Of a stretch of DNA of 64,000 nt, positions 3,189-35,699 are shown piece by piece (the stretch's first letter is position 1; the number at the start of each line of letters is the position of its first letter). The DNA is from Paraglaciecola marina (lineage in GTDB: Bacteria > Pseudomonadota > Gammaproteobacteria > Enterobacterales > Alteromonadaceae). Location of the stretch: NCBI RefSeq assembly GCF_004360155.1, contig NZ_ML178721.1, positions 1-64,000 on the forward strand, written 5' to 3'. The notes under the pieces are model-generated. The model was not told where the DNA came from. It saw only the letters and a list, made by a program, of their open reading frames with translations, and did not search any database. The position numbers and the translations under genes were made by a program.

Positions 3189-3218
3189 ATTATCTATCCA
3201 AGTCTTGTTTTATAGTGA

Positions 3219-3875: not shown

Positions 3876-3894
3876 AATGTTTCTCCTATTCTGG

Positions 3895-4596: not shown

Positions 4597-4663
4597 TAGA
4601 AAATTCTCTTATTGGATATTTTTACTAAGATTGATTGATTAATATTCATTTATCAAATATAAA

Positions 4664-4706
4664 TAAAATAACAATTAATAAATAAAATTTATTAATTGTT
4701 ATTTTA
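4664..4706. promoter_or_regulatory. Long perfect inverted repeat, candidate LysR operator
   Basis: Two 20-nt arms (4664-4683 and 4687-4706) are exact reverse complements around a 3-nt AAA spacer. The repeat contains ATTAAT...ATTAAT sub-boxes and T-N11-A-type pairs. It lies between the divergent scoA and lysR-type genes, ending 18 nt before the LysR start. It is AT-only except for one G/C pair per arm and lacks a following T-run, so an operator fits better than a terminator. Confidence 0.6.
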
Positions 4707-4724
4707 AACAAAGTAGAAACAAAT

Positions 4725-5624: not shown

Positions 5625-5668
5625 TACTCGGGCGCTGGCAGCATATGTGGACAATCATTTTGTAAACT

Positions 5669-5708
5669 AAAAAGCGCTGACAACCAGTACAGATGTCAGC
5701 GCTTTTTT
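5669..5708. terminator. Bidirectional Rho-independent terminator
   Basis: A 13-14 bp stem (AAAAAGCGCTGACA / TGTCAGCGCTTTTT) with an 11-nt loop, with A-run and T-run on the two sides, between the convergent LysR and TonB-receptor genes. Confidence 0.92.
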
Positions 5709-5721
5709 AGAGAGGCCACAC

Positions 5722-8064
5722 TTAGTCGAAGAAGTTATAACTAAATTGTAGCTTGATCATACGCTGAGTATTGAGGGTTTCCGCTGTAATACCTTGGTCT
5801 CCTGTTGGCGCACCTAAAACAGCACCAATAGGCGCTGCAGGTGGCCCACTAAATTCACTCGCTCGTGCATTGGTAATATTCTGTACAATAAGCATCACTT
5901 TCCATGTTTCTTCTGCCGATGCTAAACCCAATGTTAAATCAGCTGTAGTTAAACTGTCTGATGGATAGGTTTCATTAATTTGGCTGACCATCTTACCGCG
6001 GTGACGAATATCACCACTTGATGTGAGGATCATCCCAGATGATATTTCCGTGTCATAAAAATATCCGATGTTACCCGTTAATTTTGGGGCTTGGGCTAGA
6101 TCACTTCCGTCATCAACATGTACTGTATCTGCGTAGGTAATGGCACCATTTATCCGCAGATCGGGCGTCAACTGGTACTTTCCATCTAATTCAAAACCTG
6201 TTGATTCCACATCCACATTTTGAGTCAGAAAACCTGCGCTTTCATCGGTAACAAGAAAAGAGGTTTCTTGGAAATTTTCAATCTCACTGTAAAATAACGC
6301 CGCATTCAGATTCATTCTGCTATCGAACAATACCATCTTACTGCCCATCTCGTAGGTCTGAGTTTCTTCAGATTTAACCTGTGCGCCTCCTTCAGATACA
6401 TGCAATGATGGATCGCCGCTTGTCACTTCAGCCGACTCCGCAAACCCCCCTGTTTTGCTACCTAAACCATAAGATGTGTAGAGCACAGTGTTACGACTTA
6501 GCTCATACTTTAAAGACATATTGCCGTTTAAAAAGCTATCTTCAAAGTATAACTCCGATTCAAAGGGAGGATTGATCACAGTATTCCATAAGGTGGCAAC
6601 AGATCCTTGAATACGATTAAAAATCACGTCTTTAGACTCATCGGTATAACGTAAACCAGCTGAAAATGTGATGGAATCAGTGATATACATATCAGATTGG
6701 GCAAAAGCAGAGAGAGTTTCTGTTTCCTGCTTAAAATCATTGCCAAAAGATCCATTAAAAATTTGCCCTACTGGGCCAACAGGGGGAAAATTTGGCGTAT
6801 TAAAAAACTGCTCTTCCAGTGAGTCCCAGTCACTATTAAAGTAAAATAAACCGAACATATAATCTAACTTTTCACCGCCATTTGACGCCAGTCTAAACTC
6901 TTGAGAAAACTGGTCGTAAGTCTCATTTCGTTCAAAGTAAGTGCTGTAATACTCAACTTCGCCAGTGGTGACGTAAGTCACTTCATCAATGGCATTGCCA
7001 AAATCAAAATCATCAAAGAAGCTGATATCATAGGTGGCGGAAGAGGTAACGGAAGTAAAGGTATGGTCGTCTAGGTCATATTCTATGGTCAAGTTAAATG
7101 AATCTACGTTCGTTTCGTGAAAACTCTCTTCATTAGGACATTCAATGCACAATGCCGTTTTTGTATCATCTAAATCTGCTTCACCAACAAGATCTAACAC
7201 GTCTTGACTTAAATACCCTCCGTTATCCACCCATTGATAACCATTACCAATACGTTCGCTAACTGAATGTTGGTAAATGCCAGTGACTGTGAGTGAATCA
7301 GTGGGAGTATACTGCGCCGTAACACGCACACCAATATCGTCATCTTCTGGTACATCTCGCCCTGTTGCTAAGTTGGTGACCCAACCTTGTTGTTGTACCA
7401 AATGGCCTGCCACTCGCACGTTGAAGTCATCTGAGACAGGAATATTGACCCCTCCGTCTAGACTCCAACCTCCATTTGCCACTTCGACACCGGCGGTAAT
7501 GTTGCCGTCAAAATCACCACTTGGCCTTTTCGACATGATACTGATGGCCCCTAAACTGGTATTTTTACCCAGCAAGGTACTTTGCGTCCCTTTGATTACC
7601 TCAATTCTCTCAACATCAAAAAATGCAGTGGAATACATTCGACCTTTACCTAAAAACATACCGTCCTGAAACAACGCAACAGACTGATCAAAAGATTGTG
7701 TTCTTGCCGGTGTACCTAAGCCTCTCAGGGTAAGCGCTAGCCCATCATCTGGCGCTCTTGAGAACACCATACCAGGTACTAGTGCTGCAATTTCAAATAA
7801 GTCGTCTATACCATATTCAGCAATCTCATCGCCAGAAACTGCGGTAACCGTAGCAGGTACTTCTTGCAAGGTTTGCAAGCGCTTCTGTGAGGTAACTTGG
7901 ATAACTTCTAGCGTGGCTGATTTAGCCTCTTTTACTGACGTATCTGCATTAACGCTATTTTGCGTGTCATTAATATCTTGGGCTGCATATATTAAATGTG
8001 AGTTAACACCCACGTAACCTAATAATATTCTACTGCAAATTGCATTGAGCTTGTTTCGTTTCAT
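5722..8064 (-). CDS. TonB-dependent outer-membrane receptor
   Basis: Outer-membrane active transporter of about 780 residues. A signal peptide (MKRNKLNAICSRILLGY... to YAAQ) is followed by a plug domain with LQEVPATVTAVSGDEI, LRGLGTPAR and VERIEVIKGTQSTLLGKN, then a long barrel rich in alternating aromatic strands ending in FSYNFFD. There is no STN domain, so it does not signal through a FecR-type partner. The frame opens at a GTG (8082), but GGAGAG lies 9 nt before the ATG at 8064. It is divergent from the hydrolase-BKACE-symporter operon, so it probably brings that pathway's substrate, or an oligomer or ester of it, across the outer membrane. The substrate is not readable from sequence; a siderophore is possible but nothing in the context supports one. 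Confidence 0.88.
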   Translation of the reverse strand: MKRNKLNAICSRILLGYVGVNSHLIYAAQDINDTQNSVNADTSVKEAKSATLEVIQVTSQKRLQTLQEVPATVTAVSGDEIAEYGIDDLFEIAALVPGMVFSRAPDDGLALTLRGLGTPARTQSFDQSVALFQDGMFLGKGRMYSTAFFDVERIEVIKGTQSTLLGKNTSLGAISIMSKRPSGDFDGNITAGVEVANGGWSLDGGVNIPVSDDFNVRVAGHLVQQQGWVTNLATGRDVPEDDDIGVRVTAQYTPTDSLTVTGIYQHSVSERIGNGYQWVDNGGYLSQDVLDLVGEADLDDTKTALCIECPNEESFHETNVDSFNLTIEYDLDDHTFTSVTSSATYDISFFDDFDFGNAIDEVTYVTTGEVEYYSTYFERNETYDQFSQEFRLASNGGEKLDYMFGLFYFNSDWDSLEEQFFNTPNFPPVGPVGQIFNGSFGNDFKQETETLSAFAQSDMYITDSITFSAGLRYTDESKDVIFNRIQGSVATLWNTVINPPFESELYFEDSFLNGNMSLKYELSRNTVLYTSYGLGSKTGGFAESAEVTSGDPSLHVSEGGAQVKSEETQTYEMGSKMVLFDSRMNLNAALFYSEIENFQETSFLVTDESAGFLTQNVDVESTGFELDGKYQLTPDLRINGAITYADTVHVDDGSDLAQAPKLTGNIGYFYDTEISSGMILTSSGDIRHRGKMVSQINETYPSDSLTTADLTLGLASAEETWKVMLIVQNITNARASEFSGPPAAPIGAVLGAPTGDQGITAETLNTQRMIKLQFSYNFFD

Positions 8065-8452
8065 TGTCTTGGTCTCTCCCACTTACGCCTTGTACGAAAT
8101 ATCGCAGCTGTGGCGCATGACATTTAGATATTTTTGATGATAAGTAAGGTTTATAAAATTCTGCAATTTAACCACTATGTGGGTTAGATGTATTGCTAGG
8201 TAGGTAACCTACACCCACATGTAATGAGTTGTCAAATATTTGTGAATAAAGTGTAAATTAATTTTATTCTATTTTTTATTTCCGATACTTAACATTGCGA
8301 CAATCCAAATAAAAATATAAGTCATTGTTTTTTATGGGCATATTAAATTTAAACATATTGAAACATAATATTTACATATGTTTGACATGTGCGGAAACTG
8401 CTGGTAGATTCACTAGGCGATACAGTTTAACCACAATACGGTCAGGTGAAAA
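8065..8452. promoter_or_regulatory. Divergent regulatory region with palindromes
   Basis: This 388-bp spacer separates the TonB-receptor gene (minus) from the catabolic operon (plus), so it must hold both promoters. A perfect 13-nt palindrome GTAGGTAACCTAC is at 8200-8212. A less regular dyad, TAACCAC...GTGGGTTA, is at about 8169-8186. These are candidates for the IclR regulator encoded at the far end of the operon. No open frame of note. Confidence 0.45.
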
Positions 8453-9325
8453 ATGAAAATTAATGATATTAAACGCGTTCATAAAATTCCTAAGCAAGAT
8501 ATGGATGCAATGATCCAAGAAGAAAATTTAAACAACGACACGGGTATGCAATTCTATGACTTAAGTCACGAATGGGGCTTAGGTCAACCTTGTTGGCCGT
8601 ACTTTGAAGACGTAAAAATTGAGCGTTTGCACGGTATGTCCAAGTCAGGTGTACTCACTCAGCGTATTACCACTGTCATGCATTCTGGTACCCATATTGA
8701 TGCCCCAGCTCACGTAGTTGAAGGCACTCCATTTATGGATCAAATGCCACTACCACGCTTTTTTGGTACGGGTGTTGTAGTGTCTATTCCTAAGAAAAAA
8801 TGGGAAGTGATCACGGCTGAAGATTTAGAAAATGCTCGCCCTAAAATTCGTGAAGGTGACATAGTGATCATCAATACTGGTTGGCATCATACTTATGCAG
8901 ACTCAGCTGAGTACTATCACTATGGTCCAGGTTTGTATAAAGAAGCTGGCGAATGGCTAGCCAAGAAAAAAGTAAAAATGGTCGGGATTGATGTGCAAGC
9001 ACTTGACCACCCTCTTGGTACTGCAATTGGTCCTCATGGTCCTGGCCCGCTTATTCCACATCTTGAAAAAGAGTACCAAGAACACACTGGGCGCACAGTG
9101 CTTGAAGATTTCCCAGATTGGGAGCCTTGCCATAACGCGTTGTTAAGCAACGGCATATGCGGAATAGAAAATGTTGGCGGTGAACTCGATAAAGTCACAG
9201 GTAAACGCTGCACGCTTGCAGCTTTCCCATGGCGCTGGAAAGGGGGAGACGGTTGTATTGTTCGTTTAGTGGCTATGGTCGATCCGTCAGGCGAATATCG
9301 AATTGGAAAAGGTGAAACTGAGTAA
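8453..9325 (+). CDS. Cyclase-family metal-dependent hydrolase
   Basis: Member of the 'cyclase' family (PF04199), which includes kynurenine formamidase and isatin hydrolase. These enzymes use Zn2+ or Mn2+ to hydrolyse cyclic amides, lactones or N-formyl groups. The metal-binding signature HSGTHIDAPAH is present near residue 80, and the 290-residue length is normal for the longer subgroup. No signal peptide, so it is cytosolic. It is the first gene of an operon with dehydrogenase, BKACE, cupin, SDR and symporter genes; in that setting it may open a cyclic substrate to give a hydroxy acid. No other kynurenine-pathway gene is present, so kynurenine formamidase is unlikely. A hairpin separates it from the next gene. 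Confidence 0.8.
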   Translation: MKINDIKRVHKIPKQDMDAMIQEENLNNDTGMQFYDLSHEWGLGQPCWPYFEDVKIERLHGMSKSGVLTQRITTVMHSGTHIDAPAHVVEGTPFMDQMPLPRFFGTGVVVSIPKKKWEVITAEDLENARPKIREGDIVIINTGWHHTYADSAEYYHYGPGLYKEAGEWLAKKKVKMVGIDVQALDHPLGTAIGPHGPGPLIPHLEKEYQEHTGRTVLEDFPDWEPCHNALLSNGICGIENVGGELDKVTGKRCTLAAFPWRWKGGDGCIVRLVAMVDPSGEYRIGKGETE

Positions 9326-9332
9326 TTAACCT

Positions 9333-9359
9333 GCCTCAGCGGACTCAAACTGCTGAGGC
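9333..9359 (+). other. Intra-operon hairpin
   Basis: Perfect 8-bp GC-rich stem (GCCTCAGC / GCTGAGGC) with an 11-nt loop, just after the hydrolase stop codon. No T-run follows, so it is more likely an mRNA-processing or partial-attenuation element than a terminator. Confidence 0.5.
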
Positions 9360-9406
9360 AATTATTCACCTTTAAACTATTCACTTTTATAAGCTGAGAT
9401 AGCCTT

Positions 9407-10333
9407 ATGTTCAAAAATTCAAACGTTACCGTTATTGGCGCAGGACTCATGGGTTGTGGTATTGCCCAAGTGTTTGCTGTCAAAAATATACAGGTGACCA
9501 TTTATGATTCTATTGCCGAAGCGCGCGGATCTGCAAAAGACAAAATAGCAGCTAATCTAACTAGTTTAAACATGTCGCATGCTTCGCTAGGGTTTATTCA
9601 GGTAACAGGTGATATGCAATCAGCCATATCCAATGCTGATTTTATTATTGAAGCCGCACCTGAAAAGCTGGCAATTAAACAAAAGATATTTGCAGATATT
9701 TTGCCTTTTGTTGAACCCACAACAATAGTTGCAAGCAATACATCAGTCATCCCTATTGTCGATATATTTTCTGGTCTAAATTATCAAGATCAAGTTGTTG
9801 GGACTCATTGGTGGAATCCCCCCTATTTGGTGCCTCTAGTTGAAGTAGTCCAGAGTGAACAAAGTAGTGAGCAGGCTGTTAATACAATGATGGAGCTGCT
9901 GACATATGTTGGAAAAACGCCTGTACACATTCAAAAAGATGTTCCGGGGTTTGTTGGTAACCGCATGCAACACGCACTTTGGCGAGAGGCCATTGCACTC
10001 ATCAATGACGGGGTATGTTCACCTGAAGGTATCGACCTAGTAGTGAAAAATAGTTTTGGCCTGCGACTCCCCGTATTAGGCCCCATTGAAAATGCCGACT
10101 TAGTCGGGTTAGACCTTACGCTAGACATTCACAATGTCATCCTTCCTAGCATTAACAACCAGCAATCACCTGCAGATGTACTTAAACATAAAGTAGCTGA
10201 TGGCAATTTGGGTATGAAATCTGGAAAAGGGTTTATTCAATGGTCAACGGAAAAAGCACAAGGTGTTAGAGATAATCTCAACCAATATTTGCTTAACGCA
10301 CAAAACAAAAGAGAGAAGCAAGATGAAACCTAA
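9407..10333 (+). CDS. 3-hydroxyacyl-CoA dehydrogenase-like NAD-dependent hydroxy acid dehydrogenase
   Basis: The N-terminus is a Rossmann fold (VIGAGLMGCGIAQVFA), and the centre has SNTSVIPI and GTHWWNPPYLVPLVEVV, the histidine motif of the 3-hydroxyacyl-CoA dehydrogenase family. The C-terminal domain (DVPGFVGNRMQHALWREAIALI and SGKGFIQW) completes a 308-residue single-function enzyme. Known relatives act on 3-hydroxybutyryl-CoA, but also on free acids such as L-carnitine and L-gulonate. The next gene encodes a BKACE, which needs a free beta-keto acid. Context therefore favours oxidation of a free 3-hydroxy acid over the CoA ester, as in the L-carnitine dehydrogenase/BKACE pairing. The coding region overlaps the BKACE gene by 11 nt. 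Confidence 0.82.
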   Translation: MFKNSNVTVIGAGLMGCGIAQVFAVKNIQVTIYDSIAEARGSAKDKIAANLTSLNMSHASLGFIQVTGDMQSAISNADFIIEAAPEKLAIKQKIFADILPFVEPTTIVASNTSVIPIVDIFSGLNYQDQVVGTHWWNPPYLVPLVEVVQSEQSSEQAVNTMMELLTYVGKTPVHIQKDVPGFVGNRMQHALWREAIALINDGVCSPEGIDLVVKNSFGLRLPVLGPIENADLVGLDLTLDIHNVILPSINNQQSPADVLKHKVADGNLGMKSGKGFIQWSTEKAQGVRDNLNQYLLNAQNKREKQDET

Positions 10334-11255
10334 TCGTAAAGTTATTATTACCTGTGCTATTACAGGTGCAATGCATACCCCAACTATGTCAGATGCATTA
10401 CCTATTACCCCTGAACAGATAGCCGATGAGTCGCTTAAAGCCGCTGAAGCGGGTGCTTCTATTATTCATTTACATGCAAGAGATCCAGAAAATGGTCAGC
10501 CCACTGGCGACCCAAAAGTTTATATGAAGTTTTTGCCGGCTATTAAAGAACGAACAGATGCCGTTATCAATCTCACCACGGGGGGCAGTCCGACCATGAC
10601 GGTTGAAGAGCGACTTTCTGCAGCCATGTTAGTTAAGCCAGAAATGTGTTCCTTGAATATGGGCAGTTTAAACTTTGCCATGTTCCCCCTAGCCGATCGT
10701 TACAAAACGTGGAAATACGATTGGGAAGAAGAGTATGTGCGCAGCAGTGATGACTTCATATTTCGTAATACCTTTAGAGATATTGAAAAAATCATGACAA
10801 TCATGGCAGAACACGGTACCAAGTTTGAACATGAATGTTATGACGTGGGCCACCTCTACAATCTTGCTCACTTCGCCGACAGAGGGCTAATCAAACCGCC
10901 ATTCTTCATTCAAACCATATTCGGTATTTTAGGTGGCATTGGCGCAGATGAAGAAAACCTGATGTTTATGCGAAGCACTGCAGACCGATTATTTGGTGAT
11001 GATTATCAGTGGTCAGTGTTGGCAGCCGGAAAAAGCCAAATGCCATTTTCAACGCAAGCGGCTTTGATGGGTGGAAACGTAAGAGTCGGACTAGAAGATA
11101 GTTTGTTTATTGGTCGTGGTGAAATGGCTACAAGCAATGCTCAACAAGTTGAAAAGATTAAGCGTGTGTTGGCTGAGTTTTCTTTAGACATTGCCACCCC
11201 AGAAGAAACTCGCCAGATCTTAGGTTTGAAAGGCAAAGACCAAGTCGGTTTTTAA
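10323..11255 (+). CDS. Beta-keto acid cleavage enzyme (BKACE, DUF849)
   Basis: BKACE family enzyme (310 residues). These Zn2+ enzymes condense a beta-keto acid with acetyl-CoA and release acetoacetate plus a new acyl-CoA; the founding member, Kce, acts in lysine fermentation. The start KVIITCAITGAMHTPTMS, the zinc-binding pair in SIIHLHARDPENG, and the late GGNVRVGLEDSLF motif with its metal-ligand glutamate are all present. The start ATG at 10323 has GAGAG upstream and overlaps the dehydrogenase. The preceding dehydrogenase can supply the beta-keto acid. The acetoacetate formed can be used by the scoAB-atoB operon at 2.0-4.6 kb. The specific substrate is unknown. Confidence 0.88.
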   Translation: MKPNRKVIITCAITGAMHTPTMSDALPITPEQIADESLKAAEAGASIIHLHARDPENGQPTGDPKVYMKFLPAIKERTDAVINLTTGGSPTMTVEERLSAAMLVKPEMCSLNMGSLNFAMFPLADRYKTWKYDWEEEYVRSSDDFIFRNTFRDIEKIMTIMAEHGTKFEHECYDVGHLYNLAHFADRGLIKPPFFIQTIFGILGGIGADEENLMFMRSTADRLFGDDYQWSVLAAGKSQMPFSTQAALMGGNVRVGLEDSLFIGRGEMATSNAQQVEKIKRVLAEFSLDIATPEETRQILGLKGKDQVGF

Positions 11256-11268
11256 CAAGGAGAATGTG

Positions 11269-11625
11269 ATGAAAATAGTTAACTTAACGACATTAAAGCC
11301 TTACAACCCACCTGCACATTTCAATATGGTTGCGTTAAAAATGCAAGGGCTTGAAGAAAGCGGCCTAAAGAAGTTTTGGCAAGGTCTCAGTTATTTTTTA
11401 CCTAAAGGCGGGGCAGAGATGCAGTATCAAAAAAATACCTTTGGTGCTGAATTTGAGAAATCTTACTACGTCATCGACGGCGAGTTGACTGTTACTGATG
11501 AAAAAAATCAGTCGTATATTCTCAGTGGCGGTGATTCTGTCGCCATCCATCCAGACGAAGGCCGTAAGTTGATGAACAATACCAATAGAACAGCCACAGT
11601 GTTAGTGACTGTCTCTACTTCATAA
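11269..11625 (+). CDS. Small single-domain cupin protein
   Basis: A 118-residue protein with one cupin barrel: GAEFEKSYYVIDGELTVTD and then LSGGDSVAIHPDEGRKLMNN form the two cupin boxes. The usual two-histidine ligand set of box 1 is replaced by E/K-type residues, so metal binding is doubtful. AAGGAGA lies just upstream. It sits 10-13 bp behind the BKACE gene inside the catabolic operon. It could be an accessory isomerase or decarboxylase, or a ligand-binding protein; a function cannot be assigned. Confidence 0.72.
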   Translation: MKIVNLTTLKPYNPPAHFNMVALKMQGLEESGLKKFWQGLSYFLPKGGAEMQYQKNTFGAEFEKSYYVIDGELTVTDEKNQSYILSGGDSVAIHPDEGRKLMNNTNRTATVLVTVSTS

Positions 11626-11649
11626 GCCATTAGTAATAAAGGATAAATC

Positions 11650-12465
11650 ATGTCAATGACTGAAACGTGGAGTGATGACTTCGCACAAAGTATGTTCAAC
11701 TTAAAAGACAAAGTTGCTGTTATCACTGGCGGTAACGGCACCTTAGGCGCAGCTTATGCTCGAGCCTTTGCTTTGCACGGCGCTAAAGTAGTGGTCACGG
11801 CGAGAAACATGCAAACACTACTAGAGACAGTTGAATCAGTAAAAGAAGTAGGGGGCGAATGCATCGCCATTCAATCTGATGTCACAAACTCTCAATCCAT
11901 TGCGGCATTGGTTACAGCCGTAGATCAACAATTTGGTCGCATTGATATATTAGTCAACAATGCAGGAATGGCATTTAGAGCGCCGGCAGAACAAATGCCA
12001 GCTGATAAGTTTGCTCAAATCATGAATGTTAATGTGACTGGCACTTTGATCCCTTGCCAAGCTTTTGGTCAATACTTTATGCAAAAAGGTCATGGAAAAA
12101 TCATCAATACTTCATCGGTTCGTGGGTTTTGCGGTCATCCTGATGGTTACACCGCCTATGCGGCTTCTAAAGCTGCCGTTGATAGCCTAACTAAACAACT
12201 TTCAACTGAATGGTCGATAAAAGGAGTGAAAGAAAACTTTGCGATCAACATCAATGCCATTGCTCCTACACTGATTAAATCGCCGCTCACACAAGAAATA
12301 TGTGAAGACCCTGTGCGGATTGCCCCATTTTTGGCAAGATTACCTATGGGGCGGGTGGCTGAAACTAAAGATATGGTGGGCTTAGTATTATTCTTGTCAG
12401 CACCGGCTTCAGACTTTATCAATGGTCAGGTTGTTTATGTCGATGGCGGATGCACCGCGGGGTAA
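11650..12465 (+). CDS. Short-chain dehydrogenase/reductase (SDR)
   Basis: Classical SDR of 271 residues. The cofactor motif GGNGTLG is near residue 28, NNAG near 98, and the catalytic Ser-Tyr-Lys set is in NTSSVRGFCGHPDGYTAYAASKAA (Ser and YxxxK as expected). The C-terminal FINGQVVYVDGGCTAG is typical of gluconate 5-dehydrogenase and other sugar-acid or polyol SDRs. It probably oxidises a hydroxyl of the operon's substrate with NAD(P)+. It is preceded by AAGGA and lies 24 bp after the cupin gene. Substrate not identifiable from sequence. Confidence 0.85.
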   Translation: MSMTETWSDDFAQSMFNLKDKVAVITGGNGTLGAAYARAFALHGAKVVVTARNMQTLLETVESVKEVGGECIAIQSDVTNSQSIAALVTAVDQQFGRIDILVNNAGMAFRAPAEQMPADKFAQIMNVNVTGTLIPCQAFGQYFMQKGHGKIINTSSVRGFCGHPDGYTAYAASKAAVDSLTKQLSTEWSIKGVKENFAININAIAPTLIKSPLTQEICEDPVRIAPFLARLPMGRVAETKDMVGLVLFLSAPASDFINGQVVYVDGGCTAG

Positions 12466-12525
12466 CCTGCGACAAGTAGAGCCTTCAATAATGATAATAA
12501 TTAGAAGTGACAACAGAGGTAGTAT

Positions 12526-13983
12526 ATGAACAGTATTCTAATCTTGGTACTGGTCTACAACATTATCGTCATTTGCGGTATTGGAAAATACTTAAGCTAC
12601 AAAGCTAAGCAACAGCAGCAAATAACAGATATGGCGTTAGGTGGACGAGATGCTGGCGTCGCGATGTTTTCCGTGACTATAGCTATTACATACCTAGGCT
12701 CAGCACATGTGTATGGCTTGATGGAGATGTCTTTTGCAATAGGAGCTGTGGCCCTCTGGTTTTGTTTCGCTCATACAATATTATTGTGTGTCATTTGCCT
12801 TGGAACTGGACCATGGATCCGCCGTGTGGGTTCGGCCACAATCCCAGAGTTAATTGGTAAATTGTACGGAAAAAAATTGCGTACCTATACGGCATGCGTG
12901 GGTGCCATGGTGGTATTTGGTTTAGTTACCTTAGAGACACAAACCCTTGGAATAGGCATATCTGCAATGTCTGGTTGGTCATTAGGATGGTCTGCTGTGT
13001 TAGGTGCTGCTATTGGCACCGCATATGTATGCATGGGAGGTATTAAACAGACCATGTGGGTAAACTTAGTCAACGCGGTGGTCATGTACACAGCTGTGAT
13101 TATTGCAGGTATTTACTTAGCATTTGTTTTACCAGATGGCTGGCAGGGGGTCACTCAACATTATGTAAATAGTGGGGAAGAATTTAAGTTGTCTATATTA
13201 GGCACGCCAGACTTATTAGTGGGCTTTGGCTTAGCGGCGATATTCTCGGTAGTGTTTTCACAATCAGTTAATCAACAGGGTATGCAGGCAGCAATGTCGG
13301 CAAAAAATGAGCAAACCATCAAAAAAGCCTTATGGATAGCGGCTCCAATCAATGGATTATTTGGTGTGTTCCCTGTTTTAGTTGGTCTAGCTGCCGCCAC
13401 TATTCCCGAATTTGCACAACTTGGTCCTAAACTAGCAGGCGCTAGATTAATAGTGGAGTTGCTTCCAACATGGTTAGTTGTCCTTTTACAAGCCGGCTTT
13501 TTAGGAGCCTTATTATCTACCTTTGCTATGTCCGCTTTGGCGCCTGCGACTATTTTTGCGAAAGATATTATTGGGGCTAATGTTGAGGGTGGGTTAAGCC
13601 CAGCGAAAGAGAAAGCTTTGATCCGCAGAACGATCATTGTTATAGGCGTATTGGCATCCCCCATGACATTTTATTTACAACCTAACGTGATTCCTGCCAT
13701 AACCTGGTTATTTGCTTGGCTAGTGCCATTCTTCTTCATTATTGTCTCTGGTTTGTTTTGGAAGAGAAATACAAAAATCGCAACACTAGTACTTCTAAGC
13801 TGTTGGCTGGTAAATCTATTTTGGTCATTTACCGATATAAAACACCATATTGGTTTGCCCATGTTGGAAAACGCTCATATTGTCGCTCTAATTGCGTTAA
13901 TTATTACTTTGGTCGGCAATCTTGTGATTCGTGAGTCTAAGAATGGTCTTTTTCATAGTGAAGAAGCCAAACTCACACCTTAA
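12526..13983 (+). CDS. Sodium:solute symporter (SSS family)
   Basis: Integral inner-membrane transporter of 485 residues with about 13 hydrophobic segments. Features of the SSS/SLC5 family include an N-terminal outward helix, the GGRDAGVAMFSVTIAITYLGSAH segment around residues 38-60 (usually involved in Na+ and substrate binding), and GGIKQTMWVNLVNAVVM near 165. It likely imports the operon's substrate across the inner membrane, working in series with the TonB receptor at 5.7-8.1 kb. AGAGGT precedes the ATG. Two tiny membrane-peptide genes follow directly. Confidence 0.88.
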   Translation: MNSILILVLVYNIIVICGIGKYLSYKAKQQQQITDMALGGRDAGVAMFSVTIAITYLGSAHVYGLMEMSFAIGAVALWFCFAHTILLCVICLGTGPWIRRVGSATIPELIGKLYGKKLRTYTACVGAMVVFGLVTLETQTLGIGISAMSGWSLGWSAVLGAAIGTAYVCMGGIKQTMWVNLVNAVVMYTAVIIAGIYLAFVLPDGWQGVTQHYVNSGEEFKLSILGTPDLLVGFGLAAIFSVVFSQSVNQQGMQAAMSAKNEQTIKKALWIAAPINGLFGVFPVLVGLAAATIPEFAQLGPKLAGARLIVELLPTWLVVLLQAGFLGALLSTFAMSALAPATIFAKDIIGANVEGGLSPAKEKALIRRTIIVIGVLASPMTFYLQPNVIPAITWLFAWLVPFFFIIVSGLFWKRNTKIATLVLLSCWLVNLFWSFTDIKHHIGLPMLENAHIVALIALIITLVGNLVIRESKNGLFHSEEAKLTP

Positions 13984-14284: not shown

Positions 14285-15061
14285 TTATTGAAGTGTGGAG
14301 CCAAGAGCTTGTTCTATAATCTTTTTATACTCCATGAGTTTTTCCGCGATGACTTTTTTGTTTCGATTAAAACGAACTGAAGGAATAGGGATAGAAATAG
14401 CAATATTTCTACCGTAAGGATCTTCAATCGCTATACCCAATGCGCATACACCATCACAATGTTCTTCTTTATCAAAGGCAATGCCCTTTTTCCTGATTTT
14501 ACTAATCTCAATATAGAGCTTATCTAAGCTACTGATAGTGTGTTCGGTAAGAGAACTTAACGGCTTAGTTTGCAATAACTCGTCAATTTCGGCATCTGTC
14601 ATGTTTGCTAATATCGCTTTACCGTTGGCACAACTGTAAATAGGAAAGGCGTCCCCGACGGATGATACCGCTCGAAGTTTTTGGGTATTAGCCACAACCT
14701 GATCGATAAAAATCATCACGCTGCCATCTTGAACAGATAGATCCACTGTCTCTTCTATTTCAACGGATAGTCTTTTCATGTGGGGAAGGATAACGCGATC
14801 AATATCCGCTTTTGCAGCCGATCCAAGAGAAACAAGGCTTGGGCCTAAACGTACCCTTGCCCCAACGCTGGCTGAAATCAGAAAGCCTTCAGTACTTAAC
14901 GCTGCAACTATCCTTTGCACTGTGGAACGAGGTAAGTCAACTTCTTTGGCAATCGCACTTAGACTTAGACCTTCTGACTGTCCTTCTAAAGACTTTAGCA
15001 CTTTCGCTGCTCTAGAAATAACTTGAATACCTAGTTGGCGAGCTGTCCCTTTTTTTTCCAT
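14285..15061 (-). CDS. IclR-family transcriptional regulator
   Basis: IclR regulator of 258 residues. The N-terminal winged helix is clear (ISRAAKVLKSLEGQSEGLSLSAIAKEVDLPRSTVQRIVAALS, about residues 15-57), and a GAF-like effector domain follows with FDKEEHCDGVCALGIAI, the usual IclR signature, near residue 190. It faces the catabolic operon and is probably its regulator, acting at the divergent region 8065-8452. The regulated operon already has a LysR gene for its acetoacetate branch, so the two halves may answer to different inducers. Confidence 0.88.
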   Translation of the reverse strand: MEKKGTARQLGIQVISRAAKVLKSLEGQSEGLSLSAIAKEVDLPRSTVQRIVAALSTEGFLISASVGARVRLGPSLVSLGSAAKADIDRVILPHMKRLSVEIEETVDLSVQDGSVMIFIDQVVANTQKLRAVSSVGDAFPIYSCANGKAILANMTDAEIDELLQTKPLSSLTEHTISSLDKLYIEISKIRKKGIAFDKEEHCDGVCALGIAIEDPYGRNIAISIPIPSVRFNRNKKVIAEKLMEYKKIIEQALGSTLQ

Positions 15062-17254: not shown

Positions 17255-20200
17255 TTATGGGTATTGTCCTTCTTCTATTAGCAACAAGCTATTTGCACCT
17301 ATGCCAAACAATTTATCCACTGTTCCACTAGGCCATTTAACTGTTATTTGCTCAGCAGATGTGAGATCTCCTAAACCAAATGTTGCTTCTAGTTCCTCTG
17401 CAGAGGCAAAGCTTAAACCGGCTCTAAGGTAACGAACCATAGTTTTGCCGTCGGCCACTACCTCAACTCTAGCGCCTACACCATAACTATTGCTGGTAGT
17501 ACCTTGTAATTGAACTTTAATGAAGTTACCTACAGGTCCGTCATTACGGAATACTTGTACGCCAGTATCTTCATGGGCTATAAACCAGTCCATGTCACCG
17601 TCTTCATCAAAGTCAAACCAAATTGTACCTTTTGATTTGCCATCACTAGCCACTCCTGCCGCCTCTGTAACTTCGATAAACTCTAGCTCCCCAGTACCAT
17701 CAGAAATATTTTGATAGAGTACATTTGCTTGGCTAGGAGATGTCGCAAAGCCACCTGCCACTATACTTAAGTCTTCGTCTCCATCGTTATCAAAGTCAAC
17801 AAAGCTCGCACCCCACTCGGTAACATCTCGATTTAGAATACCGGCTGCTTGGCCTATACGACTAAAGGTACCGTCACAGTTGTTTGCATGAAGGTATGAC
17901 TCTGCGGCATCGCTTGTCATTTGACTATTGGCGTTATTGGTAACTAACACATCAAGACATCCGTCTCCATTTGGATCTCCCACCGCTATACCCATACCAT
18001 GCTGGGCGGTATCATCTAAGCCAGCCGCAGCTGTGGCATCTTCCATATTGCCAGCTCCTAGGTTTCGGTAAAACTCATCTGGACTAAAGTCTACAACTAC
18101 CCAAAGGTCTTGAGTTAGATTCTCATCAAAATCAACCCATGCAGCCGAGAATGTAGGTCTAGACGGAGCGCCATGTATACCAAGAGATGGAGCAACATCA
18201 ACGAAGTTACCATTACCGTCATTTTGGTACAGAATAGACAAAGGATCTGTGCCGTAACGTACTGATACAAACAAGTCTAAGTCGTTATCACCGTCATAAT
18301 CATTCCAAGTCGCGCCTGTGGCTCCAGTAGCTGTATTTACGCCGGCGATAGCACCCACTTCTTCGAATGTGCCATCTCCGAGGTTGTGATACAACTCACC
18401 TCCTGCGGTTAATTGATTGTCATTGGCAATATATAAATCCAGTAGTCCATCATTATCATAATCACCCCAAACCACTGCACTATTCCTAGTTTTACCACTC
18501 ACACCAACGCCTGCGGCGATACTGACATCGCTGAATGTACCATCACAGTTATTTTTGAGCAGTTTAGCCGCTTGGTTTCGAGTACTGACAGCTAAATCAA
18601 CACAGCCGTCATTGTCGTAATCTCCAGCGGCTAACCCAACTGCATCTGGAATCACATTAAGACCGGTTGCGTCGGTAACATCAGTAAACTCTGGTGTTAA
18701 GTTAACGCCCACATGTACTATGATAGTTTGACGCCCTGGCACACCGGCGCTATCTAATACTTCCGCTGTAACAATATGAGAGCCAGTAGATAAAGAATCT
18801 GTATTCACAGTACTACCATTACCTATTATGCCATCAATACTTGAGCGCCAAGTAATTCCGCTAGATAAATCACCGTCTTGAATGTCGCTGGCTAAAGCAT
18901 CAAACAAAATTGATTGGCCATCTTCAGTTCTTAATTCATCTACAGGAGAGCTTATGACAACTGATGGTGCTGTGTTGCCACTAGGATCCGAGAATAACAC
19001 TACCAGTTGTGGGTGATTATCGGCATTCGCATCTTCACCTGAATAGAATGCTAAAGAGTCTTCAACATTGTCATCATTATCATCTAAGCTACAGGCTACC
19101 CTCATTTGTACATTTTCAGCCGATTCGATGGCAGCTAAACTCTCTTCACTAAGGCTTGTGCTTGACCAGTTTTCAGGGTCGAGAGTGGCATCAAATGTAG
19201 CTGCATTTTCTACTGTTGCAGTGGCTTGAAAATCACTGGATTCAAGGGCTAAATTACCGCTAAAACCAGAGGTATGTATATCTATCAAACATGGACCTAA
19301 GACTTGAGTAGGATCCACACCTGAAACACCACCTTGTTTTAAATTCAATGTAGCCGCACTTAACACACTGCCATCTGGTATATCTAATGCAAATGAAGTG
19401 AATAACTTGATTTGACTATCATTTCTAAAGTCACCAAATCGTAACGCCCCACCTCCTGCAAAAGTAGATAACACAGACCCGCCTTGGTTAGTATTTTCGT
19501 TAGACTCTATTACAAATCCATCAAACTCGGCTGTTGAGGTAAAGGTTGCCTCACTAGGTGTTAATTGGCCGTAAATAGTTACAAAAGTAGATGCCGAAGT
19601 TTCATTACTTTCACTGTCTGTTATTGAAGCTGATATAGTATGTTCACCTGGTGATAGTGTTGAAACTACTAAAGTATCGCCAGAGCCGATCTCACCATCA
19701 ACGTCAGAGCTCCACACTACCGCAGTAGAAATATCACCATCTTCAAAATCATCAGCTTGAGCTGATAAGAACAAATCGACACCTTGGTCAACACGTGTGT
19801 CGTAGCTAGGCGCTAAAATAGTTAAAGTAGGAGCTTGGCTGCCTATAGATATTTCAAAATAAATGACTTTTATTTGACCATCGCTGTCTGTGACTGTGGC
19901 AGATATAACGTGTACACCGTCTGAAAGACTGTCAGTGGATATTGAGCTGCCTGTCCCTAGCTCACCATCTACTGAAGATGCCCATACAATCATTTCTGAA
20001 ATATCAAGGCCATCAGAATCAAAAGCAGTAGCAGATAACTCAACTAATTCTCCTGGTTCGAATACCTCACCATCTACAGATGTAACCATAGTTACAGTAG
20101 GTAAAATACCTAGTTCACCAGAGAATATCGATACAGCATGGTTGAATGCATCTGGACCTATTTCGGCTCCCATGAAACGCCCCGGAATATCATCTGCTGT

Positions 20201-22642
20201 TGGATGAATACCGCCGTATATTCTGGATAAACTGGTTTCATCGGAAGCGTCAGCATAGGTTGCCCATTGCAAAACGATATCAACACTAGGGCCATCCTCA
20301 AATACTAAAAACTCATCTTTCGGTGCTTCAAACGTTCCCATACCGCCAGGAAAAAATTCGTCACCAGTGATTAAAGTCATGACTTCTGCAGCTGCTCGGC
20401 TGAAAGTACTATGACCAGACACGTATCCAGCAAAAGGAGGAGTTACAAAAGTTGGTCGCTGATATGGCCACCAATTTTCACATAATATCCAACCTACGCC
20501 GGCAGTATCGTTTTCTGTATCTAAGATATAGTCTGGACCCCGCCAAGCCATAACAGCGATTTTTCCAATATTTTCGCCATTATCACCTGCCAAATGCTCA
20601 TGAATACCTCCAGGTGCGGCAGTTGTACTTGTTACTAATTCATATTTTCCTGATTCAAGAGCTAGGCCGTTTGCATTATAGTTAGAACCACTCGGATCTG
20701 ACGATTGCCCCAGATCACACATGTGGCGTATAGCTGATACTGGTCTGATGTAATCGTACCAGCCTTTAACTCCCCAAGCTGAGATTGCAGCATCATGCAT
20801 TGCTCCGCCTAATACTAAATAGGCTTTTACATCAAACTCTAATGGGTCGAGTAACTCACCTACACCATTAAATCGAGTTTCAAAAAGATCATGGTCCATT
20901 ACATAGTTTGCTATGCCAAACCAATGGCCTGGAGGAGTTTCTGAATCTGGACCGTCAGCCCAAAATTCTGCTAAAACTCGATAATAATCTCCAGCTGGAA
21001 CAATTTCTTGCTCATAGGGCAAACCTGTTGCTGGATTCAAATCGTGGCCATTACCAGCGTTTGTACCAATTGGATTATTACCATTAGATGCAGGACTTAT
21101 ATCAATCATTACGCCATCGGCTGGGTCAAGGAATCCACTCCATTCAACGACTTGCTGAAATCCTTCTCTATAATCATCTGTTCCTAATGCTGGTGGGGCC
21201 CCTGGATCGTGGTAAACCCAATAATCAAAACCGTCACGGTTATAGATGGTAAGGTCTTCTTCTGTTAAGGCAAAAGGAGTGACTTGGCCCCATTCTGGGC
21301 TTAGGAACTCTGATGCGCCACCGGGTATTGGGTTGCCACTCTGATCAATAAAAAATTCCAGTGACAATGGCTGCCACCTATTTGGATCGATTAAGTCTGG
21401 GTTGCCTGGCAGATCAGGTAATAAAGGAGGATTTACCGCTTCATAATAGAGATTACTAAAACTTCCTAGTTCATTGGAACCATCTGTTAAACCAAATTCT
21501 AAAACAGTAAACGCTATTCGGTTACCTAGTGCAGCAGGAGAGTCTCCTTCGGTGGATGTAAATTCTTTATCAAAACCAAGTTCATCCATCTTTTCATCAA
21601 AGTCAGCTAAGCTGGTTTCAGCACCTGGAGATGTTGAAAAGCGCCAACTTAATATACGATAGGCTGCGTAACTAATAGCTTCAAAGCGTGCAGCAGACAC
21701 ATCTTCTACAGGCTCCATTTTTTCATGGTGTAATACCTGCCCTGCTTCAGGGTCATAGGCCGCCCATGCATCATACATGGCCGCTGAAGTGTGAAAAAGG
21801 TTACGAGCATGAACGGTTGGGCGAGCGAAATCATGGCGAATTGCTTCCAATAGCTCCTCGTTCCATTGCCTAGCAGCTGAATGCTCGGCTGGTGTGTTTA
21901 CTTCTGAATAATTTATGACTAATTCGGGACTAAATTGAGCTAGTTCACCAGAGCTAAAAGTTGCGGTGTCTTGGCTGGAGTCGCCATTATCGTCTACGAC
22001 ACAGTAAGCTCTAATCTGGGTTATACCCGCAGTATCTATAGCGTTTAAACCGTTAGAATTTAATTGTGCTTCTGACCATTCTCCAGGGGTTATGACATTC
22101 GTTAAGGTTCCTGCAGACATAGCCGTAGCTGTGGCATTAAAGTCTGAGGATTCTAAAGCCGAATTACCACTAAATGCTCCACTATTGACATCAATTAAAC
22201 ATGGTCCCAATGTCTCAAATACGTTTTGCCCAATGGCTCTTCCAAACCTTAGTCGCAAAGTCGCAGAGTCAATTGTTGAGTCTTGAGGAATAGAAGATGT
22301 GTCAAAAGATACAATCGTTTTTACTTGTCTATTATCTGGAAAGTCTCCAATAACTAGAGCTGAAGTTCCAGTTTGATTGGATTTGTTAAACCCGCCATTA
22401 CCATTTAAAGCTGGACTTTCAGCTACAATCCCATCCATAGATGCGATTGATGGAAGAACAACTTCTATTGATTGAGCGTGTGAGATTGTACTAAAGCTGA
22501 AAAATATTGAACTAAATACTGCAAGAACAGAATGTTTATTTTTTATAACTGTTTTATGTAAGTTCTTTCGCTTGCTAATAATCGGTATAGTGCGCAATGC
22601 GCTACCCCGAATACTAGTCTTTACTCCATTAAATACCTTCAT
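17255..22642 (-). CDS. Giant secreted vanadium haloperoxidase-type/FG-GAP/ASPIC modular protein
   Basis: About 1,800 residues; residue numbers here count from an upstream TTG at 22699. A long-n-region signal peptide ends at SHAQ (about 76). A DNRLRE-like module spans about 78-265. A vanadium-dependent haloperoxidase/PAP2 domain follows (about 270-860) with the vanadate-binding set: K-x6-RP (KGWYDYIRP, ~643), SGHSTFSRA (~760) and R-x5-H (RIYGGIH, ~825). Then come two Ig-like repeats (~865-1045), a second DNRLRE-like module (~1046-1236), a third Ig-like repeat (~1243-1332), about seven FG-GAP/VCBS-type repeats with DxDxDG loops (for example DYDNDGLLD, ~1336-1700), and an ASPIC/UnbV C-terminus (VKWPSGTVDKL). 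The start ATG at 22642 has AAGGT upstream; that AAGGT belongs to a 15-nt tandem duplication that also creates an earlier in-frame ATG at 22657. Probably exported and surface-associated; halide oxidation or phosphatase activity is inferred from motifs only. Confidence 0.85.
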   Translation of the reverse strand: MKVFNGVKTSIRGSALRTIPIISKRKNLHKTVIKNKHSVLAVFSSIFFSFSTISHAQSIEVVLPSIASMDGIVAESPALNGNGGFNKSNQTGTSALVIGDFPDNRQVKTIVSFDTSSIPQDSTIDSATLRLRFGRAIGQNVFETLGPCLIDVNSGAFSGNSALESSDFNATATAMSAGTLTNVITPGEWSEAQLNSNGLNAIDTAGITQIRAYCVVDDNGDSSQDTATFSSGELAQFSPELVINYSEVNTPAEHSAARQWNEELLEAIRHDFARPTVHARNLFHTSAAMYDAWAAYDPEAGQVLHHEKMEPVEDVSAARFEAISYAAYRILSWRFSTSPGAETSLADFDEKMDELGFDKEFTSTEGDSPAALGNRIAFTVLEFGLTDGSNELGSFSNLYYEAVNPPLLPDLPGNPDLIDPNRWQPLSLEFFIDQSGNPIPGGASEFLSPEWGQVTPFALTEEDLTIYNRDGFDYWVYHDPGAPPALGTDDYREGFQQVVEWSGFLDPADGVMIDISPASNGNNPIGTNAGNGHDLNPATGLPYEQEIVPAGDYYRVLAEFWADGPDSETPPGHWFGIANYVMDHDLFETRFNGVGELLDPLEFDVKAYLVLGGAMHDAAISAWGVKGWYDYIRPVSAIRHMCDLGQSSDPSGSNYNANGLALESGKYELVTSTTAAPGGIHEHLAGDNGENIGKIAVMAWRGPDYILDTENDTAGVGWILCENWWPYQRPTFVTPPFAGYVSGHSTFSRAAAEVMTLITGDEFFPGGMGTFEAPKDEFLVFEDGPSVDIVLQWATYADASDETSLSRIYGGIHPTADDIPGRFMGAEIGPDAFNHAVSIFSGELGILPTVTMVTSVDGEVFEPGELVELSATAFDSDGLDISEMIVWASSVDGELGTGSSISTDSLSDGVHVISATVTDSDGQIKVIYFEISIGSQAPTLTILAPSYDTRVDQGVDLFLSAQADDFEDGDISTAVVWSSDVDGEIGSGDTLVVSTLSPGEHTISASITDSESNETSASTFVTIYGQLTPSEATFTSTAEFDGFVIESNENTNQGGSVLSTFAGGGALRFGDFRNDSQIKLFTSFALDIPDGSVLSAATLNLKQGGVSGVDPTQVLGPCLIDIHTSGFSGNLALESSDFQATATVENAATFDATLDPENWSSTSLSEESLAAIESAENVQMRVACSLDDNDDNVEDSLAFYSGEDANADNHPQLVVLFSDPSGNTAPSVVISSPVDELRTEDGQSILFDALASDIQDGDLSSGITWRSSIDGIIGNGSTVNTDSLSTGSHIVTAEVLDSAGVPGRQTIIVHVGVNLTPEFTDVTDATGLNVIPDAVGLAAGDYDNDGCVDLAVSTRNQAAKLLKNNCDGTFSDVSIAAGVGVSGKTRNSAVVWGDYDNDGLLDLYIANDNQLTAGGELYHNLGDGTFEEVGAIAGVNTATGATGATWNDYDGDNDLDLFVSVRYGTDPLSILYQNDGNGNFVDVAPSLGIHGAPSRPTFSAAWVDFDENLTQDLWVVVDFSPDEFYRNLGAGNMEDATAAAGLDDTAQHGMGIAVGDPNGDGCLDVLVTNNANSQMTSDAAESYLHANNCDGTFSRIGQAAGILNRDVTEWGASFVDFDNDGDEDLSIVAGGFATSPSQANVLYQNISDGTGELEFIEVTEAAGVASDGKSKGTIWFDFDEDGDMDWFIAHEDTGVQVFRNDGPVGNFIKVQLQGTTSNSYGVGARVEVVADGKTMVRYLRAGLSFASAEELEATFGLGDLTSAEQITVKWPSGTVDKLFGIGANSLLLIEEGQYP

Positions 22643-23010
22643 GTTGAATACCTTCATTTTAGGATAGCTTAATAACAAAACGTCTATTTTGTTTAACACA
22701 CAAATTTTTTAATTTGTACTGCTTATTTTTTACTCACCCAACATAAATAGTCAATAGCTTTACTTAGATTTTACACAGAATGCACATGTTGGTTGTTTTT
22801 ATTACCTGAATCTAAAATATCTACAGTGATTTGTGGATAGTATTTCTGTGAATAATAATTAATTGACGAGCAAATGAAGAGAATTCAAATGGTTTCGATG
22901 TGTGAAGTTGCAGTTTTTAAATTTGTAGGGCGAAATAAATGTGTTATGAAACGAATTAAATAGGAAAGGGATGTTAAATATTCAAGGAAATTTCTGAACT
23001 ACGTAAGAAA
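22643..23010. other. Gene-free spacer
   Basis: 368 bp between the giant gene and the tRNA. AT-rich; presumably holds the promoter of the giant gene. I see no open frame with a ribosome-binding site and no strong hairpin. Confidence 0.5.
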
Positions 23011-34175: not shown

Positions 34176-35699
34176 ATGTCTAAATTTACATTGCCCTCAA
34201 TAGTTTTCGTCACGTTACTTTGGACCTTTGCTTGGCCGAGCTACGCCAAATATACCGAGCTTTTTAAGCAGCAAGTTATTCCATTAGATATTACGGTAAC
34301 TCAGCCCGTCTTAGCCGCTGATGTATTGAACGATGAGGGTGTTGAGTTAATTGTAGTGGGTGTAGATGAGCTACAGCAACGTACTTTGTTGATCTTAAAA
34401 TTAGACCCAGAGACGCACCAATATCTTACACATGAAAGCGTCACTATCGACCCCAAAGTATTCGCTTATGATGTGGGCGACCCTGATCATACCGGTTTGC
34501 AAAGTATTTATTTTTTATCTAAACATCTAGTCACTAGATATATTCCCGCGCATATGTCACATCCCTCAAGGATACTTGAAGAAGAGCAAGTGTCTTCTTT
34601 GTATTTAGTTAATATTGCTGATGTTTTTATACACCAAAACTTTATTCAGGATATTAATGATGATGGCTTAAACGACATAGTTTTACAGAGCTTTGAATCC
34701 CTTAATTTATGGTTGTCGGATTGTTGCGGCTTAAGGCACCCCCAGAAACTGCCTATTGATTCAAGAATAGAAATGGAAGAAGGCAGAGTTTCATTTTATG
34801 AAAATAAGCTGTTTTTTGAAGATATGAACTTTGACGCTAAAACAGATCTGATTATAGTTGAACAAGGAAACCTTAAGGTATTTCAGCAACAGCCAGACAT
34901 GCAGTTTTCAGTGAAGCCAATATTAATACCCTTGGCACAAACCATACATGGTTTGAACTGGTGGGATATGAAAGGCCCCAATGGCAGAGATCTCAATCAA
35001 AGCAATTTAGAACATCGTACTGTTAAAGAGGTTACTGATCTTAATGGTGATGGCATTCCTGATCTAGCAGTACAATTTACCCAGAGTTCAGGTGTATTAG
35101 ACAAAAATATCGAGTTTGAATTTTACTTTGGGCAGAAACAACAAAAACTTCAGTACTCAGAAGAGGCTGAGACTAGTGTTGAGTGGGATGAAACATTATC
35201 TGGTTTAGCATTTGTTGACTTAGAAGGTGATGGTATTCAAGAGGTATTTGTATCTTCCTTTGATATTGGTATTTCTCAAATCATAGGTGCGCTCTTGTCT
35301 GGGGGAATCGATCAAGATGTTTTGTTGTTTGCCATGGGTGAAAATGGCGAATATAGCGAAAAACCACTTGTCAGCCAAGAAGTTGAAATGACCTTTAGTT
35401 TATCTCAAGGTGCCACTGGCGAGCCCCTTATCAAAGTGGTTGATATAAATGGAGATAATGTCAAAGATTTACTTTTTTCCGATGGCGACTCAGCTATTCG
35501 AGTACTCTTTGCTACTCCAGATGGTAAAAAACCGTATGCTAGGCGCTCTTTAAGACAAAAAATGATCATGCCACAAAATGCGTCATCAATAGATTCTGTA
35601 GATTTAAATAAAGATGGTAAGTCAGATTTAGTAATTCACTATGGGCAACTCGATGCTGAAGAGCTCCATAAACAAATAGTGGTGTTGTTGGCTAAATAA
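34176..35699 (+). CDS. Secreted FG-GAP/VCBS-repeat protein
   Basis: 507 residues with a signal peptide (MSKFTLPSIVFVTLLWTFAWPSYAK). It contains five to six beta-propeller-like calcium-binding loops of the FG-GAP type: DINDDGLNDIVL, NFDAKTDLIIVE, DLNGDGIPDLAVQF, DLEGDGIQEVFVSS, DINGDNVKDLLFSD and DLNKDGKSDLVIHY. No catalytic domain is seen, so it is probably a periplasmic or surface binding propeller. Divergent from the merR-like gene; no clear partner. Confidence 0.78.
   Translation: MSKFTLPSIVFVTLLWTFAWPSYAKYTELFKQQVIPLDITVTQPVLAADVLNDEGVELIVVGVDELQQRTLLILKLDPETHQYLTHESVTIDPKVFAYDVGDPDHTGLQSIYFLSKHLVTRYIPAHMSHPSRILEEEQVSSLYLVNIADVFIHQNFIQDINDDGLNDIVLQSFESLNLWLSDCCGLRHPQKLPIDSRIEMEEGRVSFYENKLFFEDMNFDAKTDLIIVEQGNLKVFQQQPDMQFSVKPILIPLAQTIHGLNWWDMKGPNGRDLNQSNLEHRTVKEVTDLNGDGIPDLAVQFTQSSGVLDKNIEFEFYFGQKQQKLQYSEEAETSVEWDETLSGLAFVDLEGDGIQEVFVSSFDIGISQIIGALLSGGIDQDVLLFAMGENGEYSEKPLVSQEVEMTFSLSQGATGEPLIKVVDINGDNVKDLLFSDGDSAIRVLFATPDGKKPYARRSLRQKMIMPQNASSIDSVDLNKDGKSDLVIHYGQLDAEELHKQIVVLLAK

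Follow-up and report, generated by a model that had tools for sequence, protein, structure and literature searches.

Within a 64,000-bp window of the Paraglaciecola marina genome (positions 1 to 64,000 of contig NZ_ML178721.1), we found one gene that encodes a vanadium haloperoxidase (VHPO) core mounted among accessory modules and followed by an FG-GAP propeller and an ASPIC/UnbV domain. Relatives of this core are linked to the same FG-GAP-UnbV unit in several phyla and within the genus, above background. Because the two are repeatedly fused or neighboring, they probably work together. On balance, we favor the view that the window protein is a secreted, polysaccharide-anchored, vanadate-dependent haloperoxidase with a CRTAC1-like partner module. 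The enzyme class is already known; the mounting of the modules and the recurrent pairing are new, and the pairing is the most useful result.

A reading of this DNA made from sequence alone had claimed that a VHPO-type domain, FG-GAP repeats, and an ASPIC/UnbV end share one protein, and this was confirmed in a single open frame. That reading ended the gene at 22642, which is an in-frame ATG (residue 20), as is 22657, but the open frame extends to a GTG at 22699. From the N to the C terminus, the protein comprises a signal-peptide-like segment, a CBM96/DNRLRE-like module, the VHPO core, two Ig-like repeats, a second CBM96/DNRLRE-like module, a third Ig-like repeat, seven FG-GAP blades, and ASPIC/UnbV, with the following coordinates:

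17255..22699, minus strand: whole VHPO gene, a single 1814-codon frame with a GTG start, 1814 aa
22478..22552, minus strand: probable signal peptide, about residues 50-74 (by eye: basic, hydrophobic, then AQS)
21908..22477, minus strand: first CBM96/DNRLRE-like module, residues 75-264 (scores below cut-off plus likeness to copy 2)
20114..21907, minus strand: VHPO core, residues 265-862 (Pfam, PDB sequence search, AlphaFold2, Foldseek)
20741..20767, minus strand: K645-x6-R652-P653 vanadate motif (motif in translation)
20411..20419, minus strand: S761-G762-H763 motif (motif in translation)
20192..20224, minus strand: R826-x5-H832 (-x3-D836) motif (motif in translation)
19844..20113, minus strand: Ig-like repeat 1, residues 863-952 (Big_7/PKD match and repeat alignment)
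19550..19843, minus strand: Ig-like repeat 2 (repeat alignment)
18980..19552, minus strand: second CBM96/DNRLRE-like module, residues 1050-1240 (41% identity to copy 1)
18710..18976, minus strand: Ig-like repeat 3 (repeat alignment; model confidence low)
17495..18709, minus strand: FG-GAP beta-propeller with seven motifs, residues 1331-1735 (Pfam, motifs, model, Foldseek match to CRTAC1)
17258..17494, minus strand: ASPIC/UnbV domain, residues 1736-1814 (Pfam; the sole UnbV match found in the Paraglaciecola marina genome)

Pfam matches in the core region were to DUF6851 (1.8e-15) and VCPO_2nd (4.5e-07), and the PAP2 acid phosphatase score of 13.7 bits fell below the curated cut-off of 27.2. We modeled the core with AlphaFold2 from an 80-row alignment (the window, L003, and 78 of the 80 best-kept loci), obtaining a pLDDT of 89.8 and a pTM of 0.92. 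Foldseek ranks 1 to 17 for this model were occupied by XhnO11, NapH3, NapH1, ZgVIPO, and CiVCPO (E values of 3e-22 to 2e-10). Together, the model confidence and these matches support a VHPO fold of helical bundles, in line with what the sequence-only reading had proposed checking by comparison with chloroperoxidase and bromoperoxidase. The vanadate-binding set that it listed (K-x6-RP, SGH, R-x5-H) is complete, and its motif regions line up with the corresponding stretches of solved VHPOs, in agreement with the fold match. Judged by fold and alignment, the motif residues may converge on one pocket; a structure without such convergence was the refuting outcome named in that reading. Across an alignment of 124 cores that includes the one in the window, eleven residues never differ (W642, K645, R652, P754, F756, S761, G762, H763, R826, H832, and D836), and P653 (123/124), P755 (118), and Y759 (117) are nearly so. 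We take K645, R652, S761, G762, R826, and H832 to be the probable vanadate ligands and H763 the probable acid-base residue, by their roles in known VHPOs. W642 and F756 presumably sit where the chloroperoxidase CiVCPO has W350 and F397, and W642, P754, and F756 are, by the same numbering, presumably as in haloperoxidases.

The core fold resembles those of the bacterial VHPOs and homologs NapH1 (3w35/3w36), XhnO11 (9l8x), NapH3 (8cxl), and ZgVIPO (4cit/4usz), with TM scores by target of 0.73-0.79 and aligned K-x6-RP and R-x5-H regions, but identity in the fold alignments is only 17-20%. A PPF-x2-Y-x-SGH stretch is shared with ZgVIPO, whereas the nearest PDB sequences, XhnO11, NapH3, and 9ptr, have no SGH histidine in the aligned stretch. 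By family profile, the nearest PDB sequence matched at an E value of 4e-14. The fold match to CiVCPO of Curvularia inaequalis (1vnc, 1idu) had E values of 8e-12 to 2e-10, and by residue numbering its W, PPF, and SGH seem to correspond to those of the window core, although CiVCPO is fungal and shares 13-14% identity. We know of no accessory modules in CiVCPO, and the solved bacterial VHPOs differ from the window protein in being small, stand-alone enzymes (resolved chains of 410-472 residues) that lack its modules. Another bacterial VHPO, and a possible relative, is RhobaVHPO of Rhodopirellula baltica (Q7UVW2), which is reported to use chloride, to prefer bromide, and to cluster apart from known chloroperoxidases (PMC12871659).

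Each class of accessory module named in the sequence-only reading was recovered. The two DNRLRE-like modules share 41% identity over 188 aa (E value of 1e-38). The first scored 29.5 bits against DNRLRE (curated cut-off of 34) and 20.8 bits against CBM96 (E value of 3.7e-4; curated cut-off of 26), and the second had no Pfam match of its own; because the scores lie below the cut-offs, we name both only CBM96/DNRLRE-like. Of the Ig-like repeats, numbers 2 and 3 each share 36% identity with number 1, and Pfam Big_7 matched in this region at 1e-05. FG-GAP_3 matched in 8 stretches (3.8e-33, 114.3 bits), and the roughly seven repeats previously counted correspond to seven calcium-type motifs of the DxDxDG kind at residues 1360, 1413, 1467, 1523, 1575, 1635, and 1696. 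With UnbV_ASPIC at the C terminus (7e-15, 55.1 bits), the protein ends as the human protein CRTAC1 does, in an FG-GAP propeller followed by ASPIC/UnbV, both above their cut-offs. The model of residues 1050-1814 (pLDDT of 78.4, pTM of 0.69) had high confidence in the FG-GAP and UnbV parts, middling confidence in the CBM96-like module, and low confidence in the third Ig-like repeat. Its top Foldseek match was murine CRTAC1 (9etn; E value of 1.2e-28, TM of 0.74 by target), and a sequence search matched residues 1526-1794 to the same entry at 2.3e-16. CRTAC1 has an EGF-like domain; Pfam gave none in the window protein, where the propeller is instead attached to an enzyme. By eye, we recognized one more FG-GAP-like repeat protein (507 aa) at 34176-35699 (plus strand) of the window; it lacks UnbV, since the only UnbV match of the genome sits in the VHPO gene.

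The search for the same architecture in other bacteria, also proposed in the sequence-only reading, yielded four further genomes among the matches listed (L004-L007, with the labels Alteromonas, Alteromonadaceae, or Gammaproteobacteria and a DNA similarity of 81-90%). They keep the whole architecture at 63% identity to the window protein over 1745 aligned aa. With segment borders obtained by shifting those of the window by a constant amount, dN/dS among the four stayed under 0.09 in all seven segments for every computable pair (some pairs were saturated), so this architecture is under purifying selection. An assembly artifact or read-through was rejected as the source of the 1814-aa frame, because the same protein occurs in four genomes and each of its segments is conserved in this way. 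When 19 window genes were compared with L004-L007 for a shared gene position, the VHPO gene was recovered and, apart from it, just one LysR-like match at 36%. Around gshB in six same-genus regions, none of the 11 window genes left of a conserved 113-aa gene was present, and two of these genomes carry VHPO elsewhere.

The core family itself is broad. A scan of named genomes gave at least 574 confirmed relatives, the best 80 of which are 57-77% identical to the window core and come from Pseudomonadota, Bacteroidota, Planctomycetota, Nitrospirota, Gemmatimonadota, Myxococcota, and other groups, mostly as metagenome-assembled genomes. Even draws of genomes contained the core in 2 of 295 within the order, one being the window's own (single-sequence query), and in 1 of 398 within the phylum, again the window's own. 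Draws centered on a genome picked as a carrier gave 22 of 395 in Bacteroidota and 11 of 294 in Planctomycetota, and in the window's genus the core was present in 8 of 22 genomes (10 genes). A plasmid search returned one distant VHPO-like core (CP049029.1:276111-277598), with 31.5% identity and an annotation as a calcium-binding protein. Other modules also accompany these cores, including Cu-binding_MopE repeats at L019, L037, L046, and L079 (three of which also have a Por_Secre_tail sorting domain), DUF4215 at L028, and an FGE-sulfatase domain in one frame with the core at L042:2-3451.

We examined the flanks of 81 loci (L003-L083, that is, L003 plus the best 80 of the at least 574 relatives) and found FG-GAP matches in 21 and UnbV matches in 15, some of them kilobases distant. 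C-terminal FG-GAP-UnbV fusions occurred at four loci (L004-L007). The core bore an N-terminal FG-GAP fusion at six loci, with UnbV at L025, L060, L074, L075, and L081 and FG-GAP only at L080 (by Pfam for five of the six). An adjoining FG-GAP gene within about 300 bp was present at seven, with UnbV at L003, L011, L052, L064, and L072 and FG-GAP only at L068 and L082. No FG-GAP partner was detected in the flanks of 60 of the 81 loci, flanks that were unequal and in some cases very short; most other members of the core family thus lack an FG-GAP-UnbV partner in the flanks examined. When 378 neighbor genes were clustered, the largest cross-locus cluster was FG-GAP/UnbV (6 loci). At L052:6012-10133, the FG-GAP-UnbV and VHPO frames share one reading frame with one stop codon between them, and at L199:9479-13294, two tandem FG-GAP-UnbV genes lie directly upstream of a VHPO gene.

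In the Bacteroidota draw, FG-GAP was fused or within 1.5 kb in 9 of 27 VHPO genes, or 7 of 25 without the two of the center genome; one of the seven, L124, is doubtful because its FG-GAP and VHPO frames overlap and the former is not called as a gene (region L202). The Planctomycetota draw gave a link in 1 of 12 genes. Six of the 10 VHPO genes of the genus are linked, in three arrangements: the C-terminal fusion in the window, an N-terminal fusion of 1766 aa at L189, and neighboring genes at L188, L194, and L196, with one gene between at L195. The other four (L190-L193) showed no FG-GAP partner in the regions fetched. The sequence-only reading, whose VHPO fold and polymer targeting gain support here, had missed this recurrent link and the other arrangements that it takes in many phyla.

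The density of UnbV, 391 matches in 261.3 Mb over 50 genomes of linked and unlinked loci, was 1.5 per Mb. Separate UnbV genes within about 300 bp of VHPO numbered 5 against 0.18 expected for these 50 (Poisson P of 1.4e-6, kinship ignored). The 50 genomes were chosen from 61 after the links had been seen, with linked loci kept apart from L004, L005, and L007. The figure for all 81 loci at the same density (5 seen, 0.29 expected; Poisson P of 1.5e-5, kinship ignored) is therefore fairer. Among the 25 Bacteroidota genes, UnbV lay within 1.5 kb of 5 (one of them a fusion) against 0.19 expected at the density borrowed from the 50 genomes, and the 4 neighbor genes alone gave a P of 4.4e-5 (kinship ignored).

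A single-origin fusion of VHPO with FG-GAP-UnbV was rejected, as linked cores are dispersed over the core tree and linked modules are interleaved with unlinked ones on the module tree. Both trees were quick, with long branches and some partial modules. The core tree required 9 changes of link state in its 80-row form (15 linked) and 17 in a 124-row form built without a mixture model (28 linked), in which L068 and L124 were scored unlinked and L005, L007, L108, L110, L132, L133, and L197-L203 were left out as near copies or repeats. The 40-row FG-GAP-UnbV module tree required 10 changes, at least 5 of them forced by starred branches, after removal of L005 and L007 (near copies), L110 (the same gene as L081), and L119, L085_3422, and L098_1556 (short or overlapping frames). 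Linked modules were still somewhat clustered on it, only 15 to 24 of 500 shuffles being as low. FG-GAP-UnbV modules thus seem, from these trees, to have been recruited more than once. The window clade falls in a half of the core tree made up of Planctomycetota, Gammaproteobacteria, and a few others, and the other copies from the genus fall in a mostly Bacteroidota half. This placement suggests that the family entered the genus more than once, and every lineage of the genus on the tree includes at least one copy with the partner.

Some copies in the genus lie in glycan-related settings. The GH149 1,3-beta-glucan phosphorylase gene at L190 scored 1745.9 bits against an NCBIfam cut-off of 1150, and by similarity to it GH149 is also near L191, L192, and L194, making 4 of 10 copies; GH16, GH17, GH3, or sugar transporter genes accompany GH149 there, and GH3 is near L188. 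Across 22 genomes of the genus, 6 carried both VHPO and GH149, 2 only VHPO, 1 only GH149, and 13 neither (Fisher P of 0.0023, kinship ignored). L190-L194 form one tight clade on the core tree, so the tie to GH149 may be one event, its four copies grouping there with a fifth. None of eleven glycan and halogenase query genes adjoins the window VHPO gene, the GH149 of the window's genome is on another contig, and around the 81 loci (L003 plus the best 80 of at least 574) the same queries gave any match at only 2. A beta-glucan context is therefore not general for VHPO. The targeting to a polymer suggested in the sequence-only reading gains from the CBM96/DNRLRE-like modules (below cut-off), from three CBM_4_9 modules in the N-terminally fused L189 homolog, and from the beta-1,3-glucan genes beside some genus copies, but not from any such gene beside the window copy itself.

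The core might instead be an acid phosphatase or another non-redox enzyme of the superfamily, holding phosphate rather than vanadate and cleaving phosphate or sulfate esters on polymers or catalyzing some other reaction. The K-x6-RP, SGH, R-x5-H-x3-D pattern is common to vanadate and phosphate sites, with D836 invariant, and NapH3, which is near in fold, has a PDB title naming an alpha-hydroxyketone rearrangement. However, the first acid phosphatase appeared at Foldseek rank 29, at E values of 0.1 and weaker compared with 3e-22 for the best VHPO, the residues at the presumed CiVCPO W350 and F397 positions are invariant in the 124 cores, and the aligned NapH3 segment reads SGF where the core family has SGH, making this alternative quite unlikely. 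Somewhat doubtful too is a reading of FG-GAP-UnbV as a generic surface adhesion module, randomly swapped among secreted proteins and with no special tie to VHPO. VHPO cores do bear other modules (Cu-binding_MopE, DUF4215), UnbV reaches 29 matches in some of the 50 genomes, and the linked modules form no group of their own. Against this, separate neighboring genes, and not only fusions, exceed background, and we found a VHPO core in 0 of 20 hand-picked regions (mostly 15-19 kb, 16 genomes) around unlinked UnbV genes. Five genomes (those of the window, L011, L025, L072, and L075) yielded just one UnbV match, the one linked to VHPO; two others (L009 and L082) also yielded just one, located apart from the VHPO gene.

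A role in defense or detoxification is possible, although we would not bet on it: the enzyme would consume algal hydrogen peroxide and halides, or make hypohalite against competing bacteria, with the modules merely keeping it near the cell. Trp_halogenase genes near 3 of the 10 genus copies (three at L188, others at L195 and L196) are in keeping with this, as is the vanadium iodoperoxidase of Zobellia galactanivorans, whose level is reported to rise on the brown alga Ascophyllum nodosum (PMC9296495). The carbohydrate-binding-like modules and the glucan loci of relatives favor a polymer over a free role, although defense on a surface would fit them as well.

In the polysaccharide-anchored haloperoxidase that we favor, the signal peptide would export the protein, the two CBM96/DNRLRE-like modules would hold it on an algal or microbial matrix polysaccharide, and the Ig-like domains would act as spacers. 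The core would bind vanadate through the six presumed ligands, with H763 as the acid-base residue, and would generate hypohalite, or halogenate bound material, from hydrogen peroxide and a halide (bromide, chloride, or iodide). The propeller, probably calcium stabilized and carrying an ASPIC/UnbV cap, would be the partner module of VHPO, C-terminally fused here and N-terminally fused or encoded next door elsewhere. Most likely, it would present a ligand or cover the mouth of the active site. Loops at the VHPO active-site entrance, often at subunit interfaces, are reported to tune these enzymes (PMC11871015).

More speculatively, VHPO and FG-GAP/ASPIC-UnbV could form a widespread two-component extracellular halogenation system, in which the propeller, as a dedicated partner, would bring a polymer or protein substrate to the vanadate site. 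The components would have been fused independently in either order, and in the window lineage the system would be tied to polysaccharide capture, with genes resembling flavin halogenases next to some copies. Were this true, an enzyme partner would offer a way to test what CRTAC1/ASPIC-UnbV proteins do in bacteria. VHPOs produce organohalogens and serve as biocatalysts, and to our knowledge no role has been established for the ASPIC/UnbV family, to which the pairing gives a concrete enzyme partner. The occurrence of the core family in many phyla, with varied modules and repeated CRTAC1-like pairing, suggests halogen chemistry aimed at surfaces or polymers. The literature searched, from which subscription papers were mostly absent, contained no vanadium-dependent haloperoxidase paired with FG-GAP and none from Alteromonadaceae (weak evidence of absence in both cases), nor any assay of a protein recognized as belonging to this VHPO family.

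On the window itself, a CoA-linked catabolic cluster was recognized by eye at 2004-13983 (thiolase, CoA transferase, LysR, TonB receptor, cyclase, and dehydrogenases). Pfam confirmed an SSF symporter (12526-13983) and an IclR regulator (14285-15061).
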